Below the pieces are notes generated by a model. It was not told the DNA's origin. It did no database searches and saw only the letters and a program-made list of their open reading frames with translations. Both the position numbers and the translations under genes were made by a program. This document shows, one piece after another, positions 14,315-42,862 of a stretch of DNA of 64,000 nucleotides. Within the stretch, counting starts at the first letter, position 1. Each line of letters opens with the position of its first letter. Source of the stretch: Phytoactinopolyspora halotolerans (GTDB taxonomy: Bacteria; Actinomycetota; Actinomycetes; Jiangellales; Jiangellaceae). The DNA lies in the NCBI RefSeq assembly GCF_010550675.1, contig NZ_JAAGOA010000029.1, positions 1 to 64,000 on the forward strand, given 5' to 3'.

Positions 14315-16690
14315 TCAGCGTGGCAGCGTGTAGTGCTGGCCTGCGAGGAGCTCATCGGCGACCGTCGAATAGATCGGGCCCGTCTCACCCGCCCAGGGGA
14401 ACGCGAACAGGGCCAGGACGGGGTCGGGGTCGACCCGGTGCACCACCCATGCTGCATCGTCGCCGTTACCGTCTCGGACGCAGGTGACGCTGGCCACCGA
14501 ACGGTGTCCGATCAACCGGAGCGCTTGGTCGGCCAGCTCGGCCGGCTCGGGATAGGGACAGCCGGAGAAGCCGAAGGTGTCCGGACCCACCTCGGTGAGC
14601 GGTGAGCGCGCCAGCCAGACGGCCCTTCCCGCTGCCGGGATGTGGTCGCGATGCAGCTTCTTGCGCTCCAGGTTCTTGTCGGTGAGGACCGATGGCTTGA
14701 CCGGGAGGTGGCGCAGGTACGGATGCTCCGCCCGGGCGGCCAGCTTCTCCTCGATCAGTGCGCCCAGGGTCTGCCGGCCATCCCCGGTGACACCGAACGG
14801 TGTGAGCAGTACGGACGCGCGCACTTGCCCGCCCACCACCAAGACGGTGCAGGCCAGGCCCCGTGGAACCTGCTCCAGGAACACCTCGCGCGTGGTGGAC
14901 TGTAGCCGTCCCCACACCTCGGCGAGCCGCTCGGCGTCCCGCACGCGGAACCGCCGCCGGATGTGGGATTCGCGAAGCGCGGGTTGCACCTTCCACGGGC
15001 CCTGTCCGGTTGCGACGAAGGTCTGCGCGTCGGTGAGATTCTCCCGCGGGAACCGGGCCCACGGGAGAACCGGGAGTCCAGCCGCCGACGCCAGCGCGTA
15101 CATCGCCGGCACGTTCTCGCCGAGCGCCGCGGCGAACATGGTCATCCCGCTCCGCTCCAGAACGATGTCGTGGCCGTCCCGGACGCCGTGGATCAGCCGT
15201 CCCTGAAAGCGGACCTCGTCCAGCCCGGCATCCTGCAGCGCCGGACCGAGATGATGCTGGTCGAGTCGGCGTGGCGTGCGTTCCCCGCCGTCCGTTCTGG
15301 GGGTGCCATCGGTTCCAGCGTGGTGGTCGGTTCCGGGCGTCCCGTGGGTTCCGGGCGTCCCGTCGGCGCCGGGGGTGCTGTCGGTTCCGGGCGTGCCTAC
15401 CGTGGAAGCCGCGGCCGCGGGCGCGGCCAGCGGCATGCCGGCAAGCACCGGGGCGACGCCGCTGAGCGTGCTGCTGAGTGCGGTTCCGTCGGAACGTGTG
15501 TCGTCGGAGCGTGTGCCGCCCGGTCCACCGGCGGTAGGAGCGGTGAGATCCAGCCGGTGGGCACCCGCCGCGATGCTCTCCCTGGCCCGGAGGAAGTAGC
15601 CCTCGATGGTCTCGTCGCCGGTGTCGACCGGTTCTCCGTACAGCGGGAAGATGTGGATCGGCATCTCATTGTTGAGATTGATCTCGCACAGGATGCAACG
15701 CTGCTGGTCAGGCGGCGCGTCGAACCGCTCCAGCAGCACGTCGATCCCGGCGTGGTACGCGCTGGGGATACACGCCGCCGCGCGCTCGGCCAGCCGGAGG
15801 ATCTCCGGATGCACCACGTCGATCAGCTCGTAACTGTCCCCTCCGGACGAGAGATTCGCCTTGTAATGCAGGAAGACGCGCCGGCCGTCCGCAGGCACGC
15901 TGTCCGGCGTCATGCCTCGCAGCGAAAGGTGATGCTCGGTGAACGAGTTGATGAGGATGGGACAGTGGCGCAGGTAGGCGTTGCTGGAGCGCAGCTCGTT
16001 CTTCTGATCGATCAGCTCGCGGATGGTGGAGGTGCCGTCGCCGATCACGTTGGCCGGGACTCGCAGCATGGCGGCCACCGCCTTGCCGGCTACGGTCATC
16101 ACACGCAGGTCGATACCGGCGACCATCTCCTCCACCAGGATCCGGCGGGCGCGGGACAACGCGTCCTCGGCCGCCGCGCGCAACTCGTCGGCGTCCCGGA
16201 TGTCGACCGTCACCCCCTTGCCGCCGCTGCCGACGATCGGCTTGACCACCACCGGGGGACCGATCTGCTCCATGGCCGCCAGCGCGTCCGCGTACGTGCC
16301 GACCACTGCGCCGCGGGCTACCGGCAGCCCGCGGTGGGCAAGGGCACGTTTGGTGAGCAGCTTGTCATTGGTCAGCTGTCGGTCGAGCGCCGTGAGAGGG
16401 GAACTCATGTTCTGGTAGAAACCTACGGCGAACCCGCCGTCGCTGATGATCTCGGTCTGCCGGTTGAGTCGCAACACGTCGAGCCCGCGACGTTCGGCCG
16501 CCTCGGCGATCATGGCGGCGTCCAGCGCCCGCTTCGCCACCTTGTGCTGGAGTTCATACGAGCGTGGCGGGAGGTGTTTCAGTTGGTTCAGCGCGGCATC
16601 GATCAGCGACTCGACGGGCGAGGAGAACGAAGCGGTGTCTGATGCCGGGTGCGCGTCCGGCGTCGCGGACGGGTCGGGCGTGTGCAGCAT
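14315..16690 (-). CDS. Two-module cyanophycin-synthetase-like ATP-grasp protein
   Basis: 791 residues. Module 1 (about 45-370) is a complete ATP-grasp fold: PVVVKPIVGSGGKGVTV, ILVEEMVAGIDLRVM, NVIGDGTSTIRELIDQKNE, LSSGGDSYELIDVVHP and CEINLNNEMP. These match the ATP-grasp half of cyanophycin synthetase, with no Mur-ligase half. A 100-residue Gly/Thr/Pro/Asp linker follows. Module 2 (about 480-791) keeps GVTGDGRQTLGALIEEK and IPAAGRAVWL but lacks the glycine-rich nucleotide loop and the C-terminal Glu/Asn metal pair, so it looks non-catalytic. ATP-grasp ligases join a carboxylate to an amine via acyl phosphate. It heads the minus-strand run with the dehydrogenase and is divergent from the AsnB-like gene. 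Confidence 0.82.
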   Translation of the reverse strand: MLHTPDPSATPDAHPASDTASFSSPVESLIDAALNQLKHLPPRSYELQHKVAKRALDAAMIAEAAERRGLDVLRLNRQTEIISDGGFAVGFYQNMSSPLTALDRQLTNDKLLTKRALAHRGLPVARGAVVGTYADALAAMEQIGPPVVVKPIVGSGGKGVTVDIRDADELRAAAEDALSRARRILVEEMVAGIDLRVMTVAGKAVAAMLRVPANVIGDGTSTIRELIDQKNELRSSNAYLRHCPILINSFTEHHLSLRGMTPDSVPADGRRVFLHYKANLSSGGDSYELIDVVHPEILRLAERAAACIPSAYHAGIDVLLERFDAPPDQQRCILCEINLNNEMPIHIFPLYGEPVDTGDETIEGYFLRARESIAAGAHRLDLTAPTAGGPGGTRSDDTRSDGTALSSTLSGVAPVLAGMPLAAPAAAASTVGTPGTDSTPGADGTPGTHGTPGTDHHAGTDGTPRTDGGERTPRRLDQHHLGPALQDAGLDEVRFQGRLIHGVRDGHDIVLERSGMTMFAAALGENVPAMYALASAAGLPVLPWARFPRENLTDAQTFVATGQGPWKVQPALRESHIRRRFRVRDAERLAEVWGRLQSTTREVFLEQVPRGLACTVLVVGGQVRASVLLTPFGVTGDGRQTLGALIEEKLAARAEHPYLRHLPVKPSVLTDKNLERKKLHRDHIPAAGRAVWLARSPLTEVGPDTFGFSGCPYPEPAELADQALRLIGHRSVASVTCVRDGNGDDAAWVVHRVDPDPVLALFAFPWAGETGPIYSTVADELLAGQHYTLPR
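15311..15400 (-). repeat. 18-base tandem repeat encoding the inter-module linker
   Basis: Five 18-base units of the type GGTTCCGGGCGTCCCGTG, variably diverged, encode Gly-Thr-Pro-Gly-Thr-Asp/His hexapeptides. They form the flexible linker between the two ATP-grasp modules. Confidence 0.75.
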
Positions 16691-16793
16691 GTGTACCTGG
16701 TGGACTCGGAGGGAACGGCGTCGGCCTGTTTCTTGAATGTGACATTACATTGCCGGAATTGAGATCTGCATGCGGTAGGGGAGGATGGGAGGC

Positions 16794-18491
16794 ATGCAGG
16801 CGGAGCGATCGAGACGCACGTTTGGAATGTGCGGACGAGTGGGGCCGGGTGACCGGTCCCGGGTGGATGCCATGTCAGATCAGCTGGGCGGCGTGCGTTC
16901 ATTGCTGGACACACCCGACGGCGCATTACGCGCGGACGCGGGCGCGGTGCGGTGGTCCCGGCAGCAGGGCGCGGCGATCTCCTGGTCGCCGGTGCCGTTG
17001 CCGGAGACGGTCGGCGAGACCGCCGACGAAGCGGCGCTCCGGCACGACGCGTTTACCCTGGTCATCGACGACGGCTCCGGCCACCTGCACAGCGGTGTCT
17101 CAGGCGCGGTGCCGATCTACGTGGACGGGGCCGGACCGGCCACCGGCGCCGGCTCCGGCGCGGATACCGCGGTCCATTTCTGCTCCCGCGTGGAACCGCT
17201 TGCCCGGACCCGCGCCGGTGGGCTCCGGCCGGACTGGGACGCGTGGGCCCATATCCTCGCCGCCGGCGCCCCGCTGGAAGGACGGACGACGTTCGAAGGC
17301 ATCCGCCGGCTGCAGCCGTGGAGCCGGGTGACGGCCGACCGTTCGGGTCGTGCCGAGCTCACCGCAGCAGGCTGGCCGTGGCTGGAGGGGCACGAGGTCG
17401 GTGCCGCCGGAGCGGGCGGTTCCGGGCTGGAAGCCGTCCGTGCGGCGCTGCTGGCGTCGGTGACCGAGCTCGGTGGCCGGGTCGCCTTGAACCCCCTGCT
17501 CAGCGGCGGTTGGGACTCACGCATACTGGCCACGCTCGCGGCGCGGGCGTCGGCGCGGCCGGTCACCGCGTGGACCACGTCCTCGGACACCGGAACCGTC
17601 ATGGAGGAGTTGGTCGCCGCCAAGGTGGCCGCACAGCTCGGGGCGCGACACGAGCTGGTGCCGCCGCGATGGGACGGATTCGCCGATGACCTGGCGATGT
17701 TCGCCCGATCCGTGGACTACCAGACGTCCTTCCACGTCTGGCTGGTCCCGTTGGCCCGCGCGCTGGTGGGCACGTCCGGCGCGGTTCTGGACGGCCTCGG
17801 TGGGGGTCTCTTCGTCGGCGGGGCGTTTCCCGACGACGACACGGACCGCCCCGTCCTGGACAAGCGGTTCGACCTGCTGGCGCGGTACCTGAACGGGGCC
17901 GAGGCGGTGCTGGATCCGCGGGTGGTCGCGCAGCTCACCGAACGTACCCGAGCCAGTTTCGAGAGCGTGGCGAAGCCGTTGGTGGATCACCCGTTCGGCA
18001 GCACCTTCACGGCCTATCTCACCCGCACCCTGCCGGGGATCAGCCTCGCGCCGTACGGGTTGATGGCGTCCTCCGCGCCCGTGGCCACGCCGTTCCTGGA
18101 CAACGACGTGGTACGGGCGGCCTTGGCGATCCCGCCGGCCGAGCATGCCGACGGACGGCTCTATCCGGAGCTGCTACGCGGTATCGACGCCGAACTGGCA
18201 CAGTCGCCGACGGCGCTGGACCTCACGCCCCGCCCACGCCGTCACCCCCGGCGGGTGGCGTCGGTGGAGGCCGCCTCGCACGTCCGCGGCCTGCTCACCC
18301 GGGAGCCGGTCCGCCGGCTGCTGGCTCCGGGCCTGGCCGAGGCGGATCTCGACGTCTGGCAGGGCCTGTTGAACCAGACCCGGGCCCAGCACCTGATCCG
18401 CGGTCTGGCCACGCTCGCGCTCTGGCTGGAGGAGTACGACGACGTCTTGGGTGGCGTCGGCGTGGACGAGCTGCTGGAAGGGACGCGGTGA
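16794..18491 (+). CDS. Asparagine-synthetase-like protein
   Basis: About 565 residues. The C-terminal half is an AsnB-type PP-loop ATP pyrophosphatase (LNPLLSGGWDSRILATLAAR), which normally activates a carboxylate as an adenylate for amide formation. The N-terminal half resembles a worn class II glutaminase: MCGRVG at the start and SGAVPIYVDG plus HFCSRVEPLAR, where active relatives have the donor-sugar-like loops. ATG 16794 has GGGGAGG nine bases upstream. ATG 16827 would put Cys second, as an active glutaminase needs, but has no good ribosome site. It opens the plus-strand run and overlaps the next gene by four bases (GTGA). Substrate unknown; likely amide or lactam formation. Confidence 0.75.
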   Translation: MQAERSRRTFGMCGRVGPGDRSRVDAMSDQLGGVRSLLDTPDGALRADAGAVRWSRQQGAAISWSPVPLPETVGETADEAALRHDAFTLVIDDGSGHLHSGVSGAVPIYVDGAGPATGAGSGADTAVHFCSRVEPLARTRAGGLRPDWDAWAHILAAGAPLEGRTTFEGIRRLQPWSRVTADRSGRAELTAAGWPWLEGHEVGAAGAGGSGLEAVRAALLASVTELGGRVALNPLLSGGWDSRILATLAARASARPVTAWTTSSDTGTVMEELVAAKVAAQLGARHELVPPRWDGFADDLAMFARSVDYQTSFHVWLVPLARALVGTSGAVLDGLGGGLFVGGAFPDDDTDRPVLDKRFDLLARYLNGAEAVLDPRVVAQLTERTRASFESVAKPLVDHPFGSTFTAYLTRTLPGISLAPYGLMASSAPVATPFLDNDVVRAALAIPPAEHADGRLYPELLRGIDAELAQSPTALDLTPRPRRHPRRVASVEAASHVRGLLTREPVRRLLAPGLAEADLDVWQGLLNQTRAQHLIRGLATLALWLEEYDDVLGGVGVDELLEGTR

Positions 18492-18907
18492 ACATGCGGT
18501 ACGAGCGAATCGGTGCGCTGCGACCGGGGCACGCGCTGCGGCCCGACCGGCCGGTCGTCGTGCCGGGCAAGAGCGCCGGCGGGCCGGAGCACCTGCAGGG
18601 CGACGTCGTCGACGTGCTGATCGAATGCGAGCGCGCCGGCGCCGCCACCGTGCTGCTGGCGAGTGACGTGGACGATCTTCAGACGCCGGTGGCGGCGGTA
18701 TGCCGGTACGCCGCGGCCGCCCGGCCCGAGGTGGTCGAGGAGGCGGTGCGCCGCTTCGGTGCCGAGCGGGTCTACCCGGTCGAGTCCGTGGAGGCGGCCG
18801 ATGCAGGTGACTGGCTCGGCCGATTGCCGCAGCCGGATCCGGGCACGTCCCGCTGGCGACGCGGTGTCCGGACCATTCTCGGCCGGATAGCGCCGAACCG
18901 GACATGA
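18488..18907 (+). CDS. Unknown small protein coupled to the AsnB-like gene
   Basis: 139 residues, no family recognised. It begins with GTG overlapping the preceding stop as GTGA, or with ATG 18494. A short beta-rich N-terminus is followed by a possible alpha/beta region (VDVLIECERAGAATVLLASDVDD) and helix AVRRFGAERV. No membrane segment or signal peptide is visible. Composition and codon use match the neighbours, so it is probably real. Tight coupling suggests it works with the AsnB-like enzyme. Confidence 0.6.
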   Translation: MNMRYERIGALRPGHALRPDRPVVVPGKSAGGPEHLQGDVVDVLIECERAGAATVLLASDVDDLQTPVAAVCRYAAAARPEVVEEAVRRFGAERVYPVESVEAADAGDWLGRLPQPDPGTSRWRRGVRTILGRIAPNRT

Positions 18908-18963
18908 TGTGGAAAGATTCGCTGTCGGACTTGAGGAAGCCCTGAATACCGACAGAAGGTTCG

Positions 18964-21324: not shown

Positions 21325-21388
21325 GGCTGCCGCGCCGGTCCGACCGGCGTAGCACGGTACTCGCGGCAGAGATGAAAAGGAACACCGA

Positions 21389-22585: not shown

Positions 22586-22719
22586 CGCCCGGTCTCCCGG
22601 TCGTCCGCGCCAGGAGCCGGGATGACCGGACACTGGTGCCCCGGAAATCACTGCAAACGGTGCAAGCACGACATCACGTCCATGATCAGCGGGTCGATCG
22701 TGCGGTAACGTTGACGACC

Positions 22720-23421
22720 ATGATGTCGCCGTTGCTCGGGGTGCTCGGAGGGATGGGCCCCGCCGCCACCGCGGACTTCCTCGCGAAGCTTGCCGCGCAT
22801 ACTCCTGCCGACCGTGATCAGGAGCACATCGCGACCATCGTGTACTCGGATCCGACCACACCGGACCGCTCGGACGCGATCCTGGCCGGCGGTGAAAGTC
22901 CGCTACCGGCGATGTTCCGCGGCGTCGCGTTTCTGGACGAGGCCGGTGCCGACCTGATCGCGATCCCGTGCAATACGGCACACGCCTGGTACGACGACCT
23001 GGCCGCGGCCACCATGGTGCCCGTCGTGCATATCGTGGATGCCGTCGGGGCGCAGGTGGAGCGGGACGCGCCAGGCGTCACCACGCTGGGGCTGATGGCG
23101 ACCGACGGCACGGTGCGCTCCGGCATCTACGAGAAGGTGCTGTCCCAATCGGGGCGTCAGGTGATCGACCTGACCGACCTGGGGCCGGACAATCCGGTGA
23201 TGGCCGGCATCCGGGCGGTCAAGGCCGGGGCCCTGGACGGCGCGCGGGACATCCTGACCAACGCGCTGCGCGAGTTGGTGGGACGCGGAGCGCAAGGCAT
23301 CATCTACGGGTGCACCGACGTGTCGGCCGTGCTGGACATCCCGCCGGAAGGGAGCGATGTGCCGGCATGGGATGCCAACGACGCACTGGCGATCGCCTGT
23401 GTCAACCGGCTACGCGGGTGA
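22720..23421 (+). CDS. Aspartate/glutamate-type amino-acid racemase
   Basis: 233 residues, the normal length for PLP-independent Asp/Glu racemases. The N-terminus LGVLGGMGPAATADFL is diagnostic. The two catalytic cysteines are in IPCNTAHAWYDDL and IYGCTDVSAVL. The enzyme interconverts L and D forms of an acidic or related amino acid in the cytosol. ATG 22720 is chosen (ATG 22723 and TTG 22711 are close). It sits between two ATP-grasp genes, so its likely job is to supply a D-amino acid for ligation; exact substrate unknown. Confidence 0.9.
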   Translation: MMSPLLGVLGGMGPAATADFLAKLAAHTPADRDQEHIATIVYSDPTTPDRSDAILAGGESPLPAMFRGVAFLDEAGADLIAIPCNTAHAWYDDLAAATMVPVVHIVDAVGAQVERDAPGVTTLGLMATDGTVRSGIYEKVLSQSGRQVIDLTDLGPDNPVMAGIRAVKAGALDGARDILTNALRELVGRGAQGIIYGCTDVSAVLDIPPEGSDVPAWDANDALAIACVNRLRG

Positions 23422-23512: not shown

Positions 23513-23586
23513 CGCCGCTGGCGCCACGTGTGCGGCCGATGGCTCGCGTCGGCGGCGTCGCGGAGGAACACCACGAGAGGCAGGGC

Positions 23587-26169
23587 ATGGACCACTCAGC
23601 GGGAGCGCTCACCGTCACGCGCGCGCACGGGATCGCTTACCGGACGCCCGGCGGCGGCAACGGCAAGTCGAAGCACTCGCCCCGAGGTAATTACCTGGTC
23701 AAGCTGGAGGCGACCACGCCGGACGGACGGCCGCTGACCGGAATCGGCGAGTGTCAGCCGCGTGGCGGCGAGACCGGAGACCGGGGCGCAGCATCGTGGG
23801 AGTTTCTCCTGGAGTGCCTCTCCGCTCTGGAACGCCGAGAGCTGTCCGCGGCCAACCGGGATGAGGCGCTGGCCGCTGTGCGCGCGCTGATGGACGAGCT
23901 CCACGACGCGGCGCTGGCCACGGTCCCGGAGCGCAGCGGGGCGTCGTCGTTGCGGAACACCATGCGCGGATGGGCGCGCCAGCTGGCCGGGAAATCCGGC
24001 CGGCGAGACCATCCACGGCCCTTCCGGGGCACCCTGTATGGGATCGAGACGGCTCTGCTCGACCTGGTCGCCAGCGGCTTGGACATCTCCGTGGCCGAAC
24101 TGCTCGGCGTCCACACCGAGAAGGTCGCGGTGGCCGCTCCGCTGTCCGGCCGGTCGGGGACGGAGAACAACCTGGCGATCTTGCACGAGGCGGCGGAGGG
24201 TGACACCGGCAGCATCGACGAACCGCTCTGGATCGACGTGCGTGGCTCGCTCAGTCCGCCGGACGCCGCCGAGCTGGTCAGGACCGTCGTCCGCGACGTT
24301 TCGCTGCGAAAGCTTCCCCGTCAGGTGATCATCGAAGAGCCGGTGCGTCCGCGGCATCGGCACCACCTCACCGCTCTGCAGCGCAAGGCCGCTGCCGCCG
24401 CGGCCGAGTCGGGGCGTCCGGGGGTGGATGTCCGCATCATGGCCGGCGAATCGGTGTGGAGCCGGCAGGGCCTGGAACGGCTGATCGCCAAGGGCGGAGT
24501 GGGAGCGCTCAACATCCGTCCGGCTGCCGTCGGCGGTTTGCTGGCCAGCATCGAGCTGGCCCAGGCGGCGCTCACGGCGGACCCGGATGTCCGCATCCAC
24601 CTCAGCCAGACCGAGGGTGCCAGTGATGTCGCCGCTGCGGCACTGAACAACCTCGCCGTGGCCTTGCCGCAGGTGCACACGGTGTTCACCGGCGATGACG
24701 AGCATCAGGTGACGGTGCCGGCGGGGCCGGGTCTGGGCGTCGGAATGCCGTACGCGTGGATGATCGATCGGATCAACGAGTACGTCACGGTGCCGGCGCA
24801 GCCGGAGGTCGCGGAGGCGGGACCGACCCCGAACGTGTACGACGAGGTGCCGTATCTGCAACCACTGGGTCCGAACGGGACCAAGGGACACCTGCTGGAA
24901 CGTGAGGCACTGGCACTGGGGCTGAGCACGACGCGGTTCTCCAAGGGTGCGTTCGTCGCCACCGACAACGTGCATCCCCCCTTGATGTTCAAGTGGAGCC
25001 GGTCGCCGCTGTCCACGGCGGTGTCGCTGGCGCTGTGCACGCACAAGGAGGCCACCCGGATGCGGCTGCGCCGCTCCGGCGTCCCGGTGCCACGCGGACG
25101 GACCTTCGCCAACGGCGACTACGGGTCCGCGCGCGCGTTCGCCGAGCGCGTGGGTTATCCGGTTGTGGTGAAGCCCGCGATGGGCGTGCGCGGTATCGGT
25201 GTCGTCGCGAACATCCAGAACGAGCAGGAGCTCGACCTGGCGTTCCGGCAGCTGGAGGACAGCAAACTCGGCAACCAGGACTTCATCGTCGAGCAACACG
25301 TCACCGGGCGGGACTACCGGATCGTCGTCGTCGGCGACGAGGTGATCGCAGCCATCCTGCGCGAGCCCGCGTCGGTCGTCGGCGACGGTCAGCATTCCAT
25401 CGCCGAGCTCATGGTCCGCAAGAACCTGGTCCGGCGGTTGAATCCGCACCTATGGGGGCGGCCGATCAAGTACGACGATGCCGCCAAGTACCAGCTGCAG
25501 CGGGTCGAGATGACCCTCGAGTCCGTGCCGGAGGCGGGGCAGCGTGTGCTGCTGTCGAACTCGTGCAGCCTCTCCCAGGGCGGCGACTCGATCGACGTGC
25601 TGGACGAGATGCATCCGTCCATCAAGGACGCCTGCGTGCGCGCGGTGAAGGCGGTTCCGGGCCTGGCGTTCTGCGGCGTCGACTTCTTGCTGGAAGACCA
25701 CACCAAGCCGATCGACGAACAGCAGGCGGGCATCTGCGAGCTGAACGCGCACGCGGCGATCGGCAACTGTGAGTATCCGCTGTACGGCACGCCCCGCGAG
25801 GTGGCACGGACGTTCATCGACGAGTGCGTCGAACGGTTCCAGCTGGTGACGAACGCCGAGCGGGCGGAGACGCTGGCGCTCAAGCTGACCATCCGGGGCA
25901 AGGTGACCCGGGTCGGCTACCGGTTGTGGATGAAGCGCCGGGCGCGGTCGTTCGGTGTCAACGGCTGGGTCCGCAATGTCAACGACCGCACCGTCGAGGC
26001 GGTCCTGGTCGGGCCGACGGCACCGACCAGCGCGCTCGCCGCCGCCGCGGTGCTGGGTTCCAAGGATGCCCTGCCGACCTCGGTGACCACGGTGCATGTG
26101 GTCCCACCGCAGGTGGAGGATTTCTCGATTGTCGATCGCGCGCCGCAGGAGCTGGTCCATGTCGGTTGA
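23587..26169 (+). CDS. Fusion: decayed dipeptide epimerase + ATP-grasp ligase + acylphosphatase domain
   Basis: 860 residues in three parts. Residues 1-395 follow the enolase superfamily (dipeptide-epimerase) fold, with GIGECQPRGGE in the cap, FRGTLYGIETALLDLVASG, WIDVRG and IIEEPV. The second-strand KxK segment is absent, the ADES metal site reads AGES, and NIKxxKxGG reads NIRPAAVGG, so catalysis is very unlikely. Residues 420-760 are an ATP-grasp ligase (GTKGHLLEREALALG, PVVVKPAMGVRGIGVVANI, VVGDGQHSIAEL, CELNAHAAIG). Residues 763-840 are acylphosphatase-like, keeping the Arg (RVGYR) and Asn (GWVRN). ATG 23587 has AGAGG upstream. The next gene overlaps its end by 11 bases. Confidence 0.82.
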   Translation: MDHSAGALTVTRAHGIAYRTPGGGNGKSKHSPRGNYLVKLEATTPDGRPLTGIGECQPRGGETGDRGAASWEFLLECLSALERRELSAANRDEALAAVRALMDELHDAALATVPERSGASSLRNTMRGWARQLAGKSGRRDHPRPFRGTLYGIETALLDLVASGLDISVAELLGVHTEKVAVAAPLSGRSGTENNLAILHEAAEGDTGSIDEPLWIDVRGSLSPPDAAELVRTVVRDVSLRKLPRQVIIEEPVRPRHRHHLTALQRKAAAAAAESGRPGVDVRIMAGESVWSRQGLERLIAKGGVGALNIRPAAVGGLLASIELAQAALTADPDVRIHLSQTEGASDVAAAALNNLAVALPQVHTVFTGDDEHQVTVPAGPGLGVGMPYAWMIDRINEYVTVPAQPEVAEAGPTPNVYDEVPYLQPLGPNGTKGHLLEREALALGLSTTRFSKGAFVATDNVHPPLMFKWSRSPLSTAVSLALCTHKEATRMRLRRSGVPVPRGRTFANGDYGSARAFAERVGYPVVVKPAMGVRGIGVVANIQNEQELDLAFRQLEDSKLGNQDFIVEQHVTGRDYRIVVVGDEVIAAILREPASVVGDGQHSIAELMVRKNLVRRLNPHLWGRPIKYDDAAKYQLQRVEMTLESVPEAGQRVLLSNSCSLSQGGDSIDVLDEMHPSIKDACVRAVKAVPGLAFCGVDFLLEDHTKPIDEQQAGICELNAHAAIGNCEYPLYGTPREVARTFIDECVERFQLVTNAERAETLALKLTIRGKVTRVGYRLWMKRRARSFGVNGWVRNVNDRTVEAVLVGPTAPTSALAAAAVLGSKDALPTSVTTVHVVPPQVEDFSIVDRAPQELVHVG

Positions 26170-27385
26170 ATCTGCCCAGACGTCCGCCGGCTCCGGCACG
26201 GCCGCTCTCCCGCCCGAGGTCCGCGACGGGTACGAGGTGCACGCGGCGGCGCTCCGCCGCGGCCTCGACGTCGCGCTCTACCCGCGACAGGTGATGATGG
26301 CCGGAGGCGGGGAGAACGACGAGATGGCGTTCATCCATGGCGTGCCCGAGTCCTCCAGCCTCGGGTCCGTCACCTACGCCCAGGACAAGCGGATGCGCCG
26401 GGCGCTGCTCGAGCGGGCTGAGCTGCCGCTGCCGAAGGGCGCGACATTCTCGGTCGGCCGGGGCATCAAGGATGCGAAGAACTTCGTGGAACGGCTCGGG
26501 TACCCGGTGGTGGTCAAGCCGGCCATGGGTGACAACGCCATCGAGACCTTCCCGGGCATCCGGAACGAGGAGCAACTCGACGCGGCGATCGATTATCTGA
26601 TGACGCCGCCGACGGAACGGGACACGTTCGTCCGAGCGGCGTACGCCCTGACTGAGCTGCGCGAGCCCGGTGAGGAGGACGGCCGCGTCGTCGTGCCTCC
26701 GGGCTATCGATTCCTGATCGAGGAACATGTGCACGGCGAGTACGTGCGTCTCCTCGTCGTCGACGGGTTGGTCCGTTCCGTCGTGCACTGCCCCGGACCA
26801 CCGTCGGTGGCGGCCGCCGAACACGGCCGGGACATCCTCGGCGAGGTCCATCCGACGCTGCAGCAGCTGGCGATCGACGCTGTCCAGGCGATGCCCGGCC
26901 TCGGGGTGGCCGCCGTCGACATCGTGGTCGGCGACTATCAGCGTCCCGCGGCGGGGCAGGGCGTCTGGATCGTAGAGCTGTCCGAGCGGCCGGGGCTGGC
27001 CGTGCAGGCCGATGTCGCGGAGGAACTCAGCCAGTTCCTCGGTGACGTGATCCTGACCCACGGTGCGGCGGTCGGCGACCTGTCGCTCGAGGAGGCACGG
27101 GATGACGTGGCCGTCGAGTTCCACGCCGAAGCCATCCCGGATCTGGACGGTGCGGTCGCCGCGCTGGCCGACGCGGCCCGTGACTTCGGCATCACCGGCC
27201 ATGTCGGCGTCACGGACCGGGTCGAGGGCGTCGCGGACGGGCTGCTGCAGGGCTCCGCGCGCCACATCGCCTGGCTGTCGGAGATGCTGCTGGACGGGCG
27301 GCTGAACGGCCACCGCGCCATGCTGGTCGAGGAGCGCCAGGTCGAGCCCGGCTCCTTCGACGGCCTCAGCGTGCGACCTGCCTGA
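26159..27385 (+). CDS. Short ATP-grasp ligase with decayed acylphosphatase-like tail
   Basis: 408 residues. Residues 20-310 form an ATP-grasp domain: HGVPESSSLGSVTYAQDKR, LPLPKGATFSVG, YPVVVKPAMGDNAIETFPG, RFLIEEHVHGEYVRLLVVD and IVELSERPG near the metal site, where Ser-Glu replaces the usual Asn. Residues 318-400 (VEFHAEAIPDLDGAVAALAD and FGITGHVGVTDRVEGVADG) align in pattern with acylphosphatase but lack its Arg and Asn. AGGAG sits seven bases before ATG 26159, which overlaps the previous stop, so the two are translationally coupled. The clear paralogue is the protein at 36276-37448. Probably the partner subunit of the longer protein. Confidence 0.8.
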   Translation: MSVESAQTSAGSGTAALPPEVRDGYEVHAAALRRGLDVALYPRQVMMAGGGENDEMAFIHGVPESSSLGSVTYAQDKRMRRALLERAELPLPKGATFSVGRGIKDAKNFVERLGYPVVVKPAMGDNAIETFPGIRNEEQLDAAIDYLMTPPTERDTFVRAAYALTELREPGEEDGRVVVPPGYRFLIEEHVHGEYVRLLVVDGLVRSVVHCPGPPSVAAAEHGRDILGEVHPTLQQLAIDAVQAMPGLGVAAVDIVVGDYQRPAAGQGVWIVELSERPGLAVQADVAEELSQFLGDVILTHGAAVGDLSLEEARDDVAVEFHAEAIPDLDGAVAALADAARDFGITGHVGVTDRVEGVADGLLQGSARHIAWLSEMLLDGRLNGHRAMLVEERQVEPGSFDGLSVRPA

Positions 27386-27399
27386 AACCGGGGTGGGAC

Positions 27400-27433: not shown

Positions 27434-30400
27434 TCACGGGAGGGCGGCGGCGACGTAATCGATGGTCATGCCGGCGACGTCGCGGGGTGTGCCTTCGTTC
27501 GGCGCGTGATGTCCGCGCATGCCCGGCGTCGTGTTGAGCTCGATGAAGTAGTGATTGCCCGGCGCGGCGGGGGCGGTGTAGTCGCCGATCATCAGGTCGG
27601 CGCCGCAGACGGCGATGTCCGGTATGCAGCGGGTGGCATTCTCCACGATCGTCCGGTAGCTGGGGTCCACGTCGTCGGTGCAATCGATGATCTCGGCCGC
27701 AGCGTGCCGGTTCGACAGCGAGCTGAGGAAGACCCGCTCGCCTCGGCCCGGTACGGAGTCGGCGGCCATGCTCCGGCGCCGGAGGAAGTCGAGTTCGTCG
27801 GTGCCCAGCCGCAGCCGAGTGTGCCGGTCGGCGCCGCGGCTGCGCAGGTCGGCGTTCTTCGCTTCGACCAGTTGCTCGATCGTGCTACGGCCGTCGCCGA
27901 TGACGTTGGCCGGGATCGCGCGTCGCACCGCGACGACGTCGCCACCGATGTAGAGGAACCGGAGCACCTCGCCCGAGACGGCTTCCTCCACCAGCACGGT
28001 GTCGTACTCCTCGGCGACAGAGCCGAACGCGGCGTCGAAGTCTTTCCGGTTGTCGATGCCGAGGAAGATCTTCTTGCCCTTGTTTCCGTTCGCCGGCTTC
28101 ACGCACATTCCGGCGTGGGCGTCGTTCACCATCGCCTCGAAGTAGAGCTGGGCACCACGCAGGTCCGAGGACGCGAACGACATGCCCCGCGGGACGCTGT
28201 AGCCGTGCTGCCGCAGTACGGCACCGGCGATGTCTTTCCGCTTGCAGATCCGGATGGCTCGCCCGTCGATACCGGTACCGGGCGTGCCGTCCGGCCGTGC
28301 CCCGACGATCGTCCCGTTGCGGACGAAGTAGGTCCGGTCCTTGACCGTGAACCGCAGCACCAGCCGTGGCCGTTCGGTTCCGCGCACGCTCTCGTGTACG
28401 CGCTGTACCTCATGCGGGAAGTCCCGGTCGACGACGGCCTGAGCCAGGAGCTTGGTGGTGCTTCCGGCTGAGAACACGCTGATGTCGCGCGGCAACGTCT
28501 CGACGCGCACGACGCGCGGGCTCGCGGACGTGCCGCTGCGCGCCGGTGCGTCGCGCCGAGTCGACCGGGGCACCGAGGAATCGAAGGCGGCGTCGGTCTC
28601 GTCCCACTTGGGGTCCGTGGTGAAGGAGTAGGCGATGTGGTAACCGCGCTCGTCGCGCGCGGCCTGAGCGCGCTGCTCGAACGAACCGTCCAGGTCGTGC
28701 TCGCACAGGCTCGTCCAGAGCGAGAGGAACTCGTCCTCGGTGACCGGTCGTGGCTGGAAGTCGGTCTTCGTGTTGTCGCTGGCGATGGGGTACAGACGCA
28801 ACGCCACGTTCCACCCGTCGCCGGCCGCGTCGAGTCCGAGCCGCGCGACGAGCCCGTAGGGTGGCATCTCGTACGCGTCGAACCGTCCCGCCCAGTTGAA
28901 GACGAAGTTGCCCAGCGAGTAGACGGTGGCATGTCCGTCGGCGAACGAGCACTGCTGCAACGCGTGCGCGCCGTGCCCCAGCACCAGGTCGACACCGGCC
29001 TTGATGAGTTCGGCGTTGGCCTTCTGGCTGCGTTCCTTGACCCACTGGTAATTCCCGCCCCAGTGCGGGAAGGCGATGATCAGCGAATCGGGCTCGGCCT
29101 GGCGTAGAGCGCGGATATCGGCGCCCAGCGCGGAAACGGACAGCGGGTTGACGCCCGCCTTCCGTTCGTCGGCGTAGAACTGATACTCGTCGCGCAGTTT
29201 CCGCTGGATCTCGCAGGCGACGAAGATGTGTACCCGGCGTTCCGATCCGCCCATGTCGAGCCGGAGGGTCAATGGCGTGGCGGCGTCCGCCGCGGTTCGG
29301 CCGGCGCCGGCGACGGCGATACCGGCGGCTTCGAGGTGTTCCCGGGTCTCGATGAGCCGGCGCTCGCCGAAGTCCATCGTGTGATTGTTCGCCAGCCCGA
29401 CGGCGCTCACCCCGAGCTCGGACAGACACCGCACCGCTCGCTCGGGGGCGTCCCATCCGAGAAACCTCTTGTTGCCTTCGAACGGACTGGTGGGGGAGGT
29501 CGCCAAGACGGTCTCGAGATTGAGGACGAGGCCGTCGTGGTCGGTGATGAGCGGTTGCAGCCCGCGGAAGAACGACATCGGGTCGCCCTCCAGGCGTTCG
29601 AGCAGCGGGCCGCCTTTGCCGTTGATGTGGACGTCACCGAGGCTGGTGTCGCCGCCGAAGACGAGGGTCTTGGTAGCGGAGGACGGTTCCGCGGTCGTGA
29701 TCTGATCGGGGACCAGCACGCTCCGGCTTCCGGCCTCGCCACCCGCGGTGTCGAAGCTCGCTTCGATGTACGGCCTGACCTTCTCCAGGACCAGACCGGT
29801 ACCGAGGCCCGGAGCGGTCTGATCCGCGATGACGTTGCCATCCGGGTCGGCGTACCGGGCGAGCGGGTCCGCGATGCGCTGTTCGACGTTGGTGGGCGGC
29901 ACGGCGGTGAGATAATCGAGCCGCGGCAGCGCGCGAGCCAGGTTGTGCAGCGTCCACGCGGTGATGTCGCTGGTCCCCAACATGCCGCCGATGCAGACGT
30001 GAATGTCCGGGTCGGCCGCGACCGCGGCCTCCGCCAGATCCAGGCTCGGCAGGAGGCCACCGGCCTTGGGAGCCTTGATGTTCAGAGCCCGGCAGCCACC
30101 GCGATCGTTGACCGTGGCGAGGTCGGTGACGTCCCACATGCCCTCGTCCGGCATGATCCGCAGGTCGAGGCTGCCGTCCTGCGCGGCGGCCCGGCATGCC
30201 TCATCCGCATGGCGCTGCAGTGCCGGCAGCTCGGTGACGTCCGCCTTCGGCAGCATTCCCTCGACCACGATCGCGCGGGGCAGCCGCTGATCGGCCATCC
30301 GCTCCACCACACCGTCGAGAAACGTCCGGGACACGGGGACGTCGTACGCCTCGTTGATGTCGATCCAGATCGGCTTGTCGCGTCCCACCGACGTGTTGGC

Positions 30401-31027
30401 GTTGTACACGTTCTCCAGCAGCTGCCAGTTGTACTCGACGTCTCCGACGCCCTTCACCCGGGTCATCGGGAACCGCTGCTGCTTGACCACCTTGCGGTGC
30501 ACGTCGTTGATGTCCGTGCTGGAGGAGATGGTCGAGACACTGATCGAGATCGTGTCCCGCTTCTTGCCCAGCAGCTCGGAGATCTGCAGGTCGAGGCCTT
30601 TCGCCGCCACGTCGAGAAGCGCGACCTCGATGCCGAGCAGTGTTCCGCGGAAGGCGCGATCGCGGTTGCTCTCGTCGGCGTATTCCCGGCTGAGCGTGTT
30701 CAGCTCCGCCATCAGCGCGCGGACGTCGGACGTGGCCGCATCGGGGTCCGCCAGCGAGATCGTGCGTCCGTGCACGTGCTGCACCGCGGCGATGAGAAAT
30801 CCCCACGCGGCGCGTCCGTCCCGGCGGCCGTCGCCGGTGAGGACATGCCGGGGCTGGCACTCGCCGATGCCGGTATGGCGGCGCCCGGCCTGCTCAGCGG
30901 TGACGGCGACGAGGAAGTTCGTCGCCGAGCGAGTGAGTCCTCGCGCCGTGCCGTAGGGCCGTTTGAGTGGCATCCGATAGCGGTACGTCTGGATGCGGTC
31001 GAGGCGCAGCTCCGTCGCGACGCTCAT
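27434..31027 (-). CDS. Fusion: dipeptide epimerase + CapA domain + ATP-grasp ligase
   Basis: 1197 residues. Residues 1-430 are an enolase-superfamily dipeptide epimerase that looks intact: MTRVKGVGD (second-strand R/K-x-K), WIDINEAY, IVVEGM and IMPDEGMW for the metal, and LNIKAPKAGG for the opposite base. Residues 448-800 are a CapA/PgsA metallophosphoesterase-like domain: LVFGGDTSLGD, LNLETVLA, GLANNHTMDFG, FPHWGGNYQW, LGHGAHALQ and SLGNFVFNWAG. Residues 850-1197 are ATP-grasp: MCVKPANGNKGKKIF, VIGDGRSTIEQLV and IELNTTPGMRGHHAP. No signal peptide or membrane helix is visible. ATG 31027 is chosen. The fusion implies epimerisation coupled to peptide ligation; substrate unknown. Confidence 0.84.
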   Translation of the reverse strand: MSVATELRLDRIQTYRYRMPLKRPYGTARGLTRSATNFLVAVTAEQAGRRHTGIGECQPRHVLTGDGRRDGRAAWGFLIAAVQHVHGRTISLADPDAATSDVRALMAELNTLSREYADESNRDRAFRGTLLGIEVALLDVAAKGLDLQISELLGKKRDTISISVSTISSSTDINDVHRKVVKQQRFPMTRVKGVGDVEYNWQLLENVYNANTSVGRDKPIWIDINEAYDVPVSRTFLDGVVERMADQRLPRAIVVEGMLPKADVTELPALQRHADEACRAAAQDGSLDLRIMPDEGMWDVTDLATVNDRGGCRALNIKAPKAGGLLPSLDLAEAAVAADPDIHVCIGGMLGTSDITAWTLHNLARALPRLDYLTAVPPTNVEQRIADPLARYADPDGNVIADQTAPGLGTGLVLEKVRPYIEASFDTAGGEAGSRSVLVPDQITTAEPSSATKTLVFGGDTSLGDVHINGKGGPLLERLEGDPMSFFRGLQPLITDHDGLVLNLETVLATSPTSPFEGNKRFLGWDAPERAVRCLSELGVSAVGLANNHTMDFGERRLIETREHLEAAGIAVAGAGRTAADAATPLTLRLDMGGSERRVHIFVACEIQRKLRDEYQFYADERKAGVNPLSVSALGADIRALRQAEPDSLIIAFPHWGGNYQWVKERSQKANAELIKAGVDLVLGHGAHALQQCSFADGHATVYSLGNFVFNWAGRFDAYEMPPYGLVARLGLDAAGDGWNVALRLYPIASDNTKTDFQPRPVTEDEFLSLWTSLCEHDLDGSFEQRAQAARDERGYHIAYSFTTDPKWDETDAAFDSSVPRSTRRDAPARSGTSASPRVVRVETLPRDISVFSAGSTTKLLAQAVVDRDFPHEVQRVHESVRGTERPRLVLRFTVKDRTYFVRNGTIVGARPDGTPGTGIDGRAIRICKRKDIAGAVLRQHGYSVPRGMSFASSDLRGAQLYFEAMVNDAHAGMCVKPANGNKGKKIFLGIDNRKDFDAAFGSVAEEYDTVLVEEAVSGEVLRFLYIGGDVVAVRRAIPANVIGDGRSTIEQLVEAKNADLRSRGADRHTRLRLGTDELDFLRRRSMAADSVPGRGERVFLSSLSNRHAAAEIIDCTDDVDPSYRTIVENATRCIPDIAVCGADLMIGDYTAPAAPGNHYFIELNTTPGMRGHHAPNEGTPRDVAGMTIDYVAAALP

Positions 31028-31184
31028 GGGGTCGTCGATCCTCCCAGCCGGGGTGATGTTGCCGTCGCGGCGATGGCCGCGCACTCCGGTCAACGATACT
31101 GGCACAGACCGTCGGCAGGCATGCCCCGGCCACGGGCAGGTGCTGGCCCGATCGGACGACGCCCGCGGCGGCCGGTCGGTGATG

Positions 31185-36272: not shown

Positions 36273-36275
36273 GTG

Positions 36276-39924: not shown

Positions 39925-39978
39925 CGCCTGACGCCGTGCGAACCTGCGTCGAGCCGGATGCGCGTCCTCGAACGGCGC

Positions 39979-40530
39979 TCAGGCTGCCGGAGCACAGCTG
40001 GAGAGGATCATCCGGTTGGCCTCGTCCAGGCCTTCCGGGCCGACGACCACGGTCGCGGAACTCCGGTACGTGGTGATGATCCGGCCCAGCCGCTGCTGCG
40101 CGTACTCGGTCCAGCTCTGATACTCGTCCGCCCAGTGGTCCCGGGAGATGAGCAGCTCGCTCGGATAGGCATATCGCCGCACCGCCGACAGCTGCGGCCG
40201 GTCCAGCACCAGCACCGGCCGGAAACCGGCGGTGAGCAGCTGTAGCCGTGCGATCTCATCCACGATCGGACCGATCCGCTCCGCCGGCACATCGAGCATC
40301 AGCACGACGACGACGGGTAACCGCTCGGTCCCGACACCCCCCAGGACGTTGCCCGGCGCCACGTCGAGCGGGGCGGTCTGCGCCGCGTCCACATCGAAGA
40401 CCCGTTTGACCAGAGACCGGGCGCTCGAACTCTGCCGGATGCGGGGCAGCAGTGCTCGACGCGCGTAACGGTATCCGGGGAGCCGCCGCACGTACCGGCC
40501 GGCTTTGCGGACTCTGGGGTTGCTCGCCAC
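39979..40530 (-). CDS. Stand-alone accessory domain shared with the 18964 glycosyltransferase
   Basis: 183 residues. A basic Arg/Tyr-rich N-terminus is followed by an alpha/beta domain (LPVVVVLMLDVPAERIGPIV, GFRPVLVLDRPQL, WTEYAQQRLGRIITTYRS). The same succession, with the same spacing, forms the C-terminal end of the glycosyltransferase at 18964-21324 (LPIALLVVVGADVDAKQTL, FRPVVLAPPSWV, WNEYLRRRVAETCRVIQ). Function unknown. GTG 40530 is chosen because AAGGTGG lies five bases upstream; GTG 40539 is an alternative. It lies upstream of and on the opposite flank from the main ATP-grasp block. Confidence 0.7.
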   Translation of the reverse strand: MASNPRVRKAGRYVRRLPGYRYARRALLPRIRQSSSARSLVKRVFDVDAAQTAPLDVAPGNVLGGVGTERLPVVVVLMLDVPAERIGPIVDEIARLQLLTAGFRPVLVLDRPQLSAVRRYAYPSELLISRDHWADEYQSWTEYAQQRLGRIITTYRSSATVVVGPEGLDEANRMILSSCAPAA

Positions 40531-40555
40531 GTGGACCACCTTAGTGACAGCCTGC

Positions 40556-42862
40556 TCAGCGGATCAGGTCAGTGATGCGCATCGCCGCATCGGCGGCGCC
40601 GTTGCCCGGATCGAACTGCGCCACCTGGGACACCATCTCGGTGCCACGGGCGAGAAGGTCGGCCAGCAATGGCTCGGCCGACTCCACGGTGACCGTCGTG
40701 ACCTGATGGGCCAGGCCCTTCTCGGCGGCGAATCCGGCGCGGGCCCGCTGGTCGTCGAGGGCGGTCTGAAGATTGGGTACGAACAGCGTCGGCACGCCGA
40801 ACCGCAACAACTCGTGGAAGGAGTTGTACCCGGACGCACTCACCGCGACGTCGAAGGCCCGGTAGTAGCGGGACAGCGGGTAGGCGCGCACCACATGGAC
40901 GCCGGAGTGCACGCCGCCGCCCGCGGCGATCTCGGGTTTGGTGATGCAGACCTGGACGCCGAGGTTGCGCAGCGCGGCGATCGAGGCGCCCACGTCGTCG
41001 CTGGTGTCGTTGATGTTGCCGGCACCGAGTGAGACCAGGGCGAGCGGTGCGTCCGGCTCGACGCCGAGCGCGGCGCGGGCCTTGTCCCGAACATCGAGCT
41101 CGTCGGTGTCCAGCAGCGTGATCGGGCCGACACGCTCCGCCGCCGCCTTGCCGGTGACGCCCCGGTCCGCCGGAGAGGCCAGATCCCCGGGCTCGAGCAC
41201 CAGGTCGAACCAGGCTGCCTTCTCCAACCGGTCCGCGCCCTGGCCTGGCTTCCACATTCCACGCCGCGACCACACCCAGCGCACCTCGGGGAAGGTCTCC
41301 TGTACTGCGGGGATTCCTTCGTACGGCCAGGTTCCGTCGAAGACGACGACGGCAGGCCGGATCCGATCCATCACCTGTGCCATGCATTCGGCGAAATACG
41401 CGTGCCAACGGCCCGGAGCCAGCCCGGTGGCCGTCATCGACGGCAGGTACTCGCACGGGTAGCCGAAGGTGCTCACCACCGGTGCCGCCTGGGACAGCGA
41501 GACGAAGTACGGGGCGACGTCCGCTCCGGTGCGCAGCGCGTAGGCCAGCAGCCGGGTCAGGTGGCCCATGCCGGAGCCGTTGCTGGAGACGAACAGGACG
41601 GACGCCTGCGCCGTCTCGGCGGGCGGCACGGGCGGGCGGGCCGCCGGGTGGTCGCCGCGGTCCTGGCCTGTGCCGTCCTGGCCTGCGCCGCTCGACGTCT
41701 CCGGTACCGGCGATGACGACGTCTGCACCGGGGATGATGCCGGAGCCGGAGCCGGAGCCGGCGACGCTGCCGGAGGGCCGGAGGGTGCACCGATCAGGTC
41801 CGTCAGCCGCGCGACGTGTGCCTCGTATCCGAACCGGCCCCGCACCACCTCGGTGGCGCGGGCGACCTGTGCGTCGTAGGCCGCCTGATCCGCGTACAGC
41901 CGGTCGATGACGCGCCGGACGTCTTTCGGCTCCGCATAGACCGCCGCCTCGCCGAAGAGGGGCTTGAACACCGTGGGTAGCACGGCCGGGACCCCGCTGG
42001 CGATCGCCTCCAGGATGGTCCGTCCGAACGCCTCCACCCAGCGTGGGTCATGGAAGTACACGAAGAAGTCGAGGCCGCCGAGGAACTCCTTGGGTGACAT
42101 GGCGCCGAACTCGTACACCTCCCACGAATCCGGCAGCGTGCCCAGCAACGCCTCGGCCGGCTCCGCACCGCCGAGGACGCGGATCGTCCACGAGCCGTCG
42201 ACCGGGTAGACCGCTCGGAGCGTCTCGGCGTCCCGCGGCCACTTCTGCGCCGACGACCGGCTGTGCCGGCCCACAATCGGGCGGGCTCCGCGAGGACCGC
42301 GCCGTTCGTGACGCCAGGCGTCCACGTCGATGATGTTGACCCAATCGGAGTCCAGCAACGACGCCGGCGGGACCCGGCCGGTGATCGACTCCCGCACCTG
42401 CGGACCGATCGGCGCCCATAACGGCTCGTGGCCGAAACGCTCCCGTGCAATTCGGTGCACGTGCTCCGGGCGGTAGTGCTCGTGCCCGTCGATGTCGTGC
42501 GGCGCGGCATTGGCGACGATGACGACGTGGTCCGCCTGGACCGGGGGCAGCTGACCGGCGGCCTTCTCCAGCACGGCTGGGTGCCGGACTACGGCCACCC
42601 GGGCGCGGACGTGCTCGGGGCGTAACAGGAGCTCCGCATGGCCCTGTTCGACCTCCGCCCTGATCTGGGCGTTGACCGGTGAGACCTTGGCCACGAGCGG
42701 TCCGTTGAGGTGCAGGAGAGCGGTGCTGAAACCGGCCGCGTGCTGTGCTTTGACCTCTTCGGCGATGCTGTGCGCGGTTCCGCCCGCGAAGCGCAGGTCG
42801 GACACGTCGAGCACATCCACGGCTCGGGCATCGGTTTCAGACACGGGAGACGATAATGCCAT
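40556..42862 (-). CDS. Two-enzyme glycosyltransferase fusion (GT-B plus GT28/MurG-like)
   Basis: 768 residues. Residues 1-355 are the GT-B domain shared with the 18964 protein: FAGGTAHSIAEEVKAQHAAG, WAPIGPQVRESI, RPIVGRHSRSSAQKWP, FFVYFHDPRWVEAFGRTILE and KPLFGEAAVYAE. A Pro/Ala/Ser linker of about 55 residues follows. Residues 415-768 are a second GT-B enzyme of GT28/MurG type: VSSNGSGMGHLTRLLAYAL, LVSLGAGNINDTSDD, AVSASGYNSFHELLRFGVPT and LFVPNLQTALDDQRAR. ATG 42862 has TGGAG nine bases upstream. Probably adds two sugars, or initiates and extends, on a lipid or sugar acceptor. Confidence 0.82.
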   Translation of the reverse strand: MALSSPVSETDARAVDVLDVSDLRFAGGTAHSIAEEVKAQHAAGFSTALLHLNGPLVAKVSPVNAQIRAEVEQGHAELLLRPEHVRARVAVVRHPAVLEKAAGQLPPVQADHVVIVANAAPHDIDGHEHYRPEHVHRIARERFGHEPLWAPIGPQVRESITGRVPPASLLDSDWVNIIDVDAWRHERRGPRGARPIVGRHSRSSAQKWPRDAETLRAVYPVDGSWTIRVLGGAEPAEALLGTLPDSWEVYEFGAMSPKEFLGGLDFFVYFHDPRWVEAFGRTILEAIASGVPAVLPTVFKPLFGEAAVYAEPKDVRRVIDRLYADQAAYDAQVARATEVVRGRFGYEAHVARLTDLIGAPSGPPAASPAPAPAPASSPVQTSSSPVPETSSGAGQDGTGQDRGDHPAARPPVPPAETAQASVLFVSSNGSGMGHLTRLLAYALRTGADVAPYFVSLSQAAPVVSTFGYPCEYLPSMTATGLAPGRWHAYFAECMAQVMDRIRPAVVVFDGTWPYEGIPAVQETFPEVRWVWSRRGMWKPGQGADRLEKAAWFDLVLEPGDLASPADRGVTGKAAAERVGPITLLDTDELDVRDKARAALGVEPDAPLALVSLGAGNINDTSDDVGASIAALRNLGVQVCITKPEIAAGGGVHSGVHVVRAYPLSRYYRAFDVAVSASGYNSFHELLRFGVPTLFVPNLQTALDDQRARAGFAAEKGLAHQVTTVTVESAEPLLADLLARGTEMVSQVAQFDPGNGAADAAMRITDLIR

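Follow-up and report, generated by a model that had tools for sequence, protein, structure and literature searches.

A candidate teichuronopeptide-like pathway with eleven ATP-grasp modules in Phytoactinopolyspora halotolerans

In this work, we focus on a block of genes found at 14.3-42.9 kb of a 64,000-nucleotide stretch of Phytoactinopolyspora halotolerans DNA (positions 1 to 64,000 of contig NZ_JAAGOA010000029.1, hereafter the window, which is stretch C22 of the 7.3 Mb source genome, called G000). Profile scans find eleven ATP-grasp modules in eight genes of this block, at the positions and with the domains that a first-pass annotation of the DNA had given them. That annotation had read the block as a candidate for an undescribed system adding amino acids or peptides to a uronic-acid surface polymer. 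Judging from its sequence and from the company it keeps in other genomes, this shared actinobacterial cluster probably builds acidic peptides onto an exported cell-wall sugar polymer.

The genes of the cluster

Ten of the eleven modules are of the cyanophycin synthetase kind, and the eleventh is the sugar-transfer associated ATP-grasp P5 (21389-22585, +; ATPgrasp_ST, PF14397, E 4e-37). Two modules lie in P1 (14315-16690, -), one intact and the second degenerate, and three in P9 (31185-36272, -), which runs from a worn N-terminal region through an ATP-grasp, an acylphosphatase, a CapA and another ATP-grasp domain to a degenerate ATP-grasp. The other modules come singly. P6 (frame 23530-26169, +, with a start at 23587 taken from orthologues) joins a pseudo-epimerase to an intact ATP-grasp and an acylphosphatase, and P7 (frame 26096-27385, +, start at 26159 by the same means) is a pseudo ATP-grasp with an end that looks acylphosphatase-like by eye. 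P8 (frame 27434-31105, -; 27434-31027 from an internal ATG chosen by eye) carries a dipeptide-epimerase-like domain, a CapA domain and an ATP-grasp. P10 (36276-37448, -) is a second pseudo ATP-grasp, and P11 (37957-39924, +) has an epimerase remnant, an intact ATP-grasp and a worn acylphosphatase-like end.

Between these genes lie P2, an AsnB-like ATP-pyrophosphatase amide synthetase (16785-18491, +, likely start 16827; PF00733, E 3e-15), the small protein P3, which matches no family (18488-18907, +), and a separate aspartate/glutamate racemase gene (22720-23421, +; PF01177, E 5e-36). P4 (18964-21324, +) is a GT-B glycosyltransferase according to its AlphaFold model, with a C-terminal part to which no role is assigned; the confidence of this model is moderate (mean pLDDT 64), and we therefore rely on its GT-B match alone (best MshA, E 6e-10). 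P12 (39979-40539, -) is a small protein related to that C-terminal part, its orthologue in the relative G001 being 30% identical to P4 over about 100 residues. P13 (40556-42862, -, the upper position being an internal ATG within frame 40556-42994) combines a GT-B domain with a MurG-like GT-B domain (PF04101 over its cut-off, PF13692 under it), and the first half of its orthologues is 41-45% identical to P4.

The sugar side of the system adjoins the block. A UDP-sugar dehydrogenase (12860-14122, -; PF03721/PF00984/PF03720), which would supply UDP-uronic acid, is followed outwards by a GT1 family glycosyltransferase (11608-12735, -; PF00534, E 2e-15) and by an ABC exporter, made of a Wzt-type ATPase (7807-8811, +; teichoic-acid export ATPase model, E 2e-66) and a Wzm-type permease (7113-8003, +; galactan Wzm model, E 5e-16, no Pfam family), both under the cut-offs of their models. 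Further out are a GT2 glycosyltransferase (5767-6990, +; PF00535, E 5e-20) and an LCP glycopolymer transferase for wall attachment (4157-5782, +; PF03816, E 3e-24), whose orthologue in G002, a genome of the same genus, lies outside the cluster. The first-pass annotation had spoken of LCP ligases in the plural; one gene bears this out, and no other was found among the window proteins scanned. The remainder of its inventory (CapA, acylphosphatase-like domains, racemase, AsnB-like enzyme, GT-B enzymes, dehydrogenase and exporter) stands.

State of the modules and of their partner domains

To judge the modules, the ten of cyanophycin type were aligned to TeCphA1, with the active-site residues taken from the description in PMC9427784. 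K220, K261, R309, R323, D431, E450 and N452 are all kept in five of the ten, namely the first module of P1, that of P6, the first and second of P9 and that of P11, so that the lysine pair that binds ATP, the pair of substrate arginines and the metal ligands are all present there. The P8 module has the same residues except R323. P7 and P10 are without the lid stretch and N452, which we take to be a ligand. The two remaining modules, the second of P1 and the third of P9, are degenerate. On these residues, six cyanophycin-type modules would be catalytically equipped (one of them minus an arginine) and four look dead. H267, a residue tied to cyanophycin, is changed in all ten, and R458 in all except P8. 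P7 gives a model (pLDDT 85) whose best fold match is TeCphA1 (E 6e-16, TM-score 0.46 by query). No relative of P9 was found among the viral contigs searched.

The first-pass annotation had counted one intact and three worn epimerase regions. What we take to be the catalytic set of these enzymes (the second Lys of a KxK motif, D/E/D metal ligands and a Lys on strand 6) is kept in P8, where the first Lys of KxK is an Arg, and in five of its six orthologues; solved relatives of the domain are weak matches (best E 1e-8, dipeptide epimerase 1e-7). Several of these residues are gone from the P6 region, as they are from most of the aligned P6 relatives. P11 keeps a remnant (E 2e-13 in a four-sequence search), and the P9 region is marginal, with a best domain E of 0.01 (1e-7 for its G001 orthologue). 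With 842-856 residues, the P11 relatives in G001, G005 and a second contig of G003 are also longer than P11 itself, and in the G001 relative the epimerase-like part is full-length, as against the remnant in the window.

The racemase is closest among solved structures to the aspartate racemase 1jfl (E 5e-46), and its CNT and GCT stretches are intact. The D-residues that the first-pass annotation had suggested are thus plausible, from an aspartate-type racemase together with an epimerase that has its catalytic set. The CapA domains of P8 and P9 match at E 2e-48 and 5e-51; a match of the P8 CapA domain to the lasso-peptide epimerase MslH reached 42.9 bits against a cut-off of 700 and was not used. 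The acylphosphatase domains, found by Pfam in P6 and P9, retain there the Arg and the Asn which we assume to be catalytic. Of 10 actinobacterial relatives, 6 have the Arg and 5 the Asn, and of 45 frames of the Amphibacillus type described below, 13 and 19, respectively, so a catalytic role is not general. In P2, a Pfam scan matched no glutaminase family, and no solved relative was found at E 0.01. Its SGGxDSR loop is present in all 11 aligned rows, 7 of which also have a Cys-Gly close to the start, so that glutamine is a possible but not a certain substrate of P2.

Recurrence in relatives and in other families

Rarity of co-occurrence had been named in advance as a finding that would speak against a common system; the genes do co-occur, both in close relatives and in other families. 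The core is syntenic, with some parts absent, in the five nearest genomes used for synteny (G001-G005, where G002 and G004 are of the same genus and G005 is of another genus of the family). The racemase gene is in all five; P1 is not in G003, P8 is seen in G003 and G004, and counterparts of P9 and P10 are in G001 and partly in G002. P9 is two genes in G001, where the stretch ends short of the UDP-sugar dehydrogenase.

The distribution beyond these genomes is sporadic. In a search of 393 genomes of the class, with two candidates scored per genome, an epimerase-ATP-grasp-acylphosphatase protein was found at E<1e-100 in the source genome, in G001-G005, in none of 16 other genomes of the family and in 1 of 371 outside it; in a sample of the phylum, 2 of 395 others have it at E 1e-75. 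A scan of named genomes gave at least 77 loci, the best-matching of which are twelve actinobacterial loci (L036-L047, three of them from G005, G002 and G004); L048 is a second cluster of P. endophytica, and the remaining listed loci mostly match the ATP-grasp part alone. All twelve have the P6-type protein (cut by the contig in L046 and without most of the epimerase part in L047), eleven have P7, ten each have the AsnB-like enzyme, the ATPgrasp_ST enzyme and the P4-type protein, nine have the racemase, and P3 homologues adjoin AsnB in five. L036-L043, including those of Haloechinothrix and Ruania, have the same or nearly the same gene order, which is rearranged in Nesterenkonia (L044, L045) and in a metagenome-assembled genome (MAG) of soda-lake Nitriliruptoraceae (L047).

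The sugar genes travel with the ligases. A UDP-sugar dehydrogenase is found in seven of the twelve loci, in copies that are 65-87% identical. Exporter genes adjoin the ligases in five (one at a contig edge; four by Pfam), and also in the extended flank of Haloechinothrix; the Wzt relatives concerned are those of two Ruania, a Propionibacteriaceae MAG, the Nitriliruptoraceae MAG and Haloechinothrix. Counterparts of the GT1 gene, 51% and 55% identical, adjoin Wzt/Wzm in Ruania albidiflava and Haloechinothrix.

In several carriers, parts of the cluster are joined or replaced by other ligases. The P8-type fusion of epimerase, CapA and ATP-grasp is seen in the window and in Nesterenkonia alkaliphila, while two Ruania species (L040, L042) have the same type of epimerase fused to a Mur ligase, and Haloechinothrix aidingensis (L039; TupA E 3e-28) has it fused to a TupA-type ATP-grasp. 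A TupA gene lies within the P. endophytica block, another adjoins P7 in N. haasae, and three are on the contig of the block in Ruania albidiflava, about 1, 8 and 23 kb away. Anywhere in the genome, TupA is found in 6 of the 11 searched genomes that carry the twelve loci. The recurring exporter, UDP-sugar dehydrogenase and glycosyltransferase and the exchange with TupA and Mur ligase are what would be expected for amino acids carried on a uronic-acid polymer, as the first-pass annotation had proposed.

As a separate observation, the Ruania albidiflava block (L153:1329-9653, L154) sits in a wider wall-polymer island with TupA-like genes, a separate Mur ligase, a GT1 and a CDP-glycerol glycerophosphotransferase.

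TupA and the ATP-grasp-acylphosphatase proteins

TupA is the gene by which teichuronopeptide is known, a wall polymer of alkaliphilic Bacillus composed of poly-gamma-L-glutamate and polyglucuronate (PMC8153356). B. halodurans is without pgs and cap operons according to a 2013 review, which calls the peptide synthetase unidentified and proposes a novel system for the peptide, such as an ATP-grasp synthetase (PMC3815933). The order of Amphibacillus provides a view of TupA next to proteins of the kind found in the window. One stretch of Amphibacillus sediminis (L078) holds Wzm, Wzt, a GT-B fusion, TupA, two ATP-grasp-acylphosphatase proteins, a UDP-sugar dehydrogenase and LCP, and in Lacicoccus alkaliphilus (L193:8606-20000, L194:1-8898) seven ATP-grasp-acylphosphatase frames come after TupA, together with three ATPgrasp_ST-like enzymes, one frame of each kind being confirmed by Pfam.

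This association was counted in 299 genomes of that order, with a TupA threshold of E 1e-20 and frames of at least 400 residues called long. TupA is found in 36 genomes and long TupA in 15. With four candidates scored per genome, a full-length ATP-grasp-acylphosphatase protein is found in 16, which are all 15 long-TupA genomes and G852 (Fisher p 2e-24, a value that ignores the relatedness of the genomes); 15 other hits have the ATP-grasp part alone, in frames of 780-894 residues. Around 45 TupA places, 40 stretches were compared (15 long and 25 short, some ended by contig ends). An ATP-grasp-acylphosphatase gene adjoins TupA in 14 of the 15 long stretches (the fifteenth is at the end of a contig) and never in the short ones; likewise, Wzm or Wzt is in all 15 long stretches vs none of the 25 short. 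The short TupA genes (L211-L237, about 300 residues) are often near a UDP-sugar dehydrogenase, with no ATP-grasp-acylphosphatase gene nearby, and may form a separate glycan-amidating class.

A FastTree tree places the chosen modules of the window among those of 9 Amphibacillus-type stretches, 12 cyanophycin-like loci and 7 actinobacterial loci, the degenerate modules (P7, P10, the second of P1 and the third of P9) being excluded. CphA1 and CphA2 form one clade (support 1.0) with the window modules outside it, and the Amphibacillus-type proteins form another (0.99), which includes one Nesterenkonia salmonea protein. All epimerase-ATP-grasp-acylphosphatase proteins are grouped (0.995), with the P6 type (0.66) and P11 plus one MAG protein (0.88) within the group. 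The other lineages are P1 (0.99), P8 with one Haloechinothrix protein (1.0) and the second module of P9 (0.55). For five of the six intact window modules, the tree thus shows a counterpart from another family (in two cases on a split below 0.7); for the first module of P9, the sampled sequences include none. Such a picture is compatible with old paralogues that have distinct tasks.

A proposed pathway and its alternatives

From these sequence data, we consider it rather probable that the cluster is a teichuronopeptide-like pathway which ligates acidic, partly D, amino acids to an exported uronic-acid wall polymer. The UDP-sugar dehydrogenase would provide UDP-uronic acid, from which the GT-B, GT1 and GT2 enzymes would assemble the glycan inside the cell. 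Since CphA1 adds amino acids at the C-terminal carboxylate of a peptide (PMC9427784), each intact cyanophycin-type module would phosphorylate the end carboxylate of the uronate or of the growing peptide and couple the next amino acid to it. The racemase would make the D-acidic residue, most likely aspartate, and the P8 epimerase domain would invert one residue of a dipeptide. The AsnB-like and ATPgrasp_ST enzymes would form further amides; the dead epimerase, dead ATP-grasp and acylphosphatase domains may serve as scaffolds or remove stray acyl phosphates. Wzm/Wzt would then export the polymer and LCP attach it to the wall. The product, the identity of its residues, their linkage, the order of the steps and any role in alkali or salt tolerance are what we infer from these parts.

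The likeness to teichuronopeptide lies in the uronic acid supply next to the window ligases, in the TupA relatives in or beside some of the related clusters and in the co-occurrence of long TupA with ATP-grasp-acylphosphatase proteins; the cluster differs in adding a racemase, an epimerase, CapA, AsnB-like and pseudo-enzyme parts. Searches by title and abstract of the open-licence literature on this domain combination, on TupA-like and on ATPgrasp_ST systems gave no description of the cluster. The claim of an undescribed system holds to that extent, although teichuronopeptide, which the first-pass annotation had not named, is a precedent for the polymer class. The tie of long TupA to ATP-grasp-acylphosphatase proteins makes these proteins candidates for the teichuronopeptide peptide synthetase. 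The actinobacterial cluster would extend the polymer class to another phylum, with more chemistry and probably D-residues. A more specific proposal is tentative and on the doubtful side: the ATP-grasp-acylphosphatase proteins would be the missing teichuronopeptide-type synthetases, and the actinobacterial version would be an assembly line without a template. On it, up to six ligases, each kept as a separate lineage and helped by pseudo-enzymes, racemase and epimerase, would act in a fixed order, and a defined acidic peptide of D- and L-residues would be built on a uronic-acid polymer.

Several observations weigh against this teichuronopeptide-like reading. TupA (PF14305) is not found in the source genome, in a search in which 5 of 13 genomes were positive, and it is present in 1 of 6 family genomes searched. 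The epimerase that is fused to TupA in L039 is the P8 orthologue that lacks the catalytic residues. In the tree, the ATP-grasp-acylphosphatase proteins of the actinobacteria and of the order of Amphibacillus are not one clade. One of the 15 long-TupA stretches has a UDP-sugar dehydrogenase vs 16 of the 25 short ones, and the genuine teichuronopeptide gene could therefore be of the short class; in the actinobacteria, five of the 12 loci, some of which are truncated at contig ends, lack this dehydrogenase, and CapA was found in 4 of the 12 by the searches made. Finally, labels of salt, alkali or soda lake are on 6 of the 12 loci (P. halophila, P. alkaliphila, Haloechinothrix, N. alkaliphila and two MAGs with the CSSed code, which stands for Cock Soda Lake according to PMC6704655); a link with salty or alkaline habitats, which has these names and one paper as its basis, is suggestive only.

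Among the alternatives, the cluster could put single amino acids, and no peptides, on each uronic acid, with one ATP-grasp enzyme per position or sugar. The persistence of several intact paralogues as separate lineages would suit this, and there is a precedent in Campylobacter, where a TupA-like domain joins one amine to capsular glucuronate, as an amide of its C6 carboxylate (PMC11800379). The enzyme of Campylobacter jejuni, Cj1438, is like the window system in being an ATP-grasp ligase (here of TupA type) acting on the uronic acid of a surface glycan; it differs in adding serinol or ethanolamine groups, with no amino acids described there, and in belonging to another ATP-grasp subfamily (PMC11800379). 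However, the enzyme family closest to the window modules elongates a peptide from its C-terminal carboxylate (PMC9427784), and a dipeptide-epimerase-like domain is present, so we regard single residues as unlikely.

A homopolymer resembling poly-gamma-glutamate or cyanophycin, in which the modules would polymerise one amino acid, CapA would export or trim the chain and the sugar genes would be unrelated neighbours, seems to us quite improbable. The CapA domains do match poly-gamma-glutamate proteins, as a racemase for an acidic amino acid also recalls PgsBCA, and the modules are closest to cyanophycin synthetase, with which they have the ATP-grasp family and core catalytic residues in common. 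But the window ligases are of the ATP-grasp type, and PgsB (TIGR04012) was not found in G000 in a search whose control was positive in 6 of 14 genomes including B. subtilis, one of them over the cut-off; the PgsBCA system was rejected on this search. A PgsC-like Pfam family was not found among the window proteins scanned, the rest of the genome not having been searched. The cyanophycin system was rejected as well: Pfam scans find no Mur-ligase domain in any cluster protein, H267 and R458 are changed, and the scores are far below the cut-offs of the cyanophycin synthetase models. That no Mur half, PgsB or PgsC is visible agrees with the first-pass annotation. The sugar genes recur alongside the modules, and five of the six intact modules, two of them on weakly supported splits, have counterparts of their own in other families, against what a homopolymer would lead one to expect.

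Similarly improbable is a peptide natural product or an osmolyte, whether soluble or exported, on the lines of N-acetylglutaminylglutamine amide synthesis with its pair of ATP-grasp and AsnB-like enzymes. The modules do match N-acetylglutaminylglutamine synthetase below its cut-off, the AsnB-like gene is adjacent and has its Cys-Gly in most rows, and halophilic hosts require osmolytes. But the recurring genes include glycosyltransferases, UDP-sugar dehydrogenase and an ABC exporter of the polysaccharide type, and both pathway models remain far below their cut-offs (TIGR03103, 169.8 bits for P1 and 283.8 for P9 vs 569; TIGR03104, 19.3 bits for P2 vs 570.1); on these scores the pathway was rejected.

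Related loci and neighbouring genes

A second cluster of the source genome (contig C65, 188.8-199.8 kb; L028:8820-19757 and L029) encodes five ATP-grasp proteins that are relatives of P6 and P7, in the vicinity of a PLP decarboxylase-like gene, a 702-residue protein without a Pfam match and P13-like GT-B genes; P6-like genes are in similar settings in G001, G002, G004 and G005. In the proteobacterium Vreelandella hamiltonii (L076:1079-3535), a protein in which an acylphosphatase domain accompanies two ATP-grasp regions is encoded near a UDP-sugar dehydrogenase-like gene, and is perhaps a third branch of the same idea.

Within the polymer region of the window, an acetoacetate-CoA ligase gene (9374-11503) is found at the same place in G002, G003 and G005. 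The block is flanked by an F420 FbiB-like gene and by a GT2 gene with a DUF5719 partner (43736-45718, 46787-52245). The same flanking neighbours are present in G004 and G005, which indicates an island at a fixed chromosomal site there.

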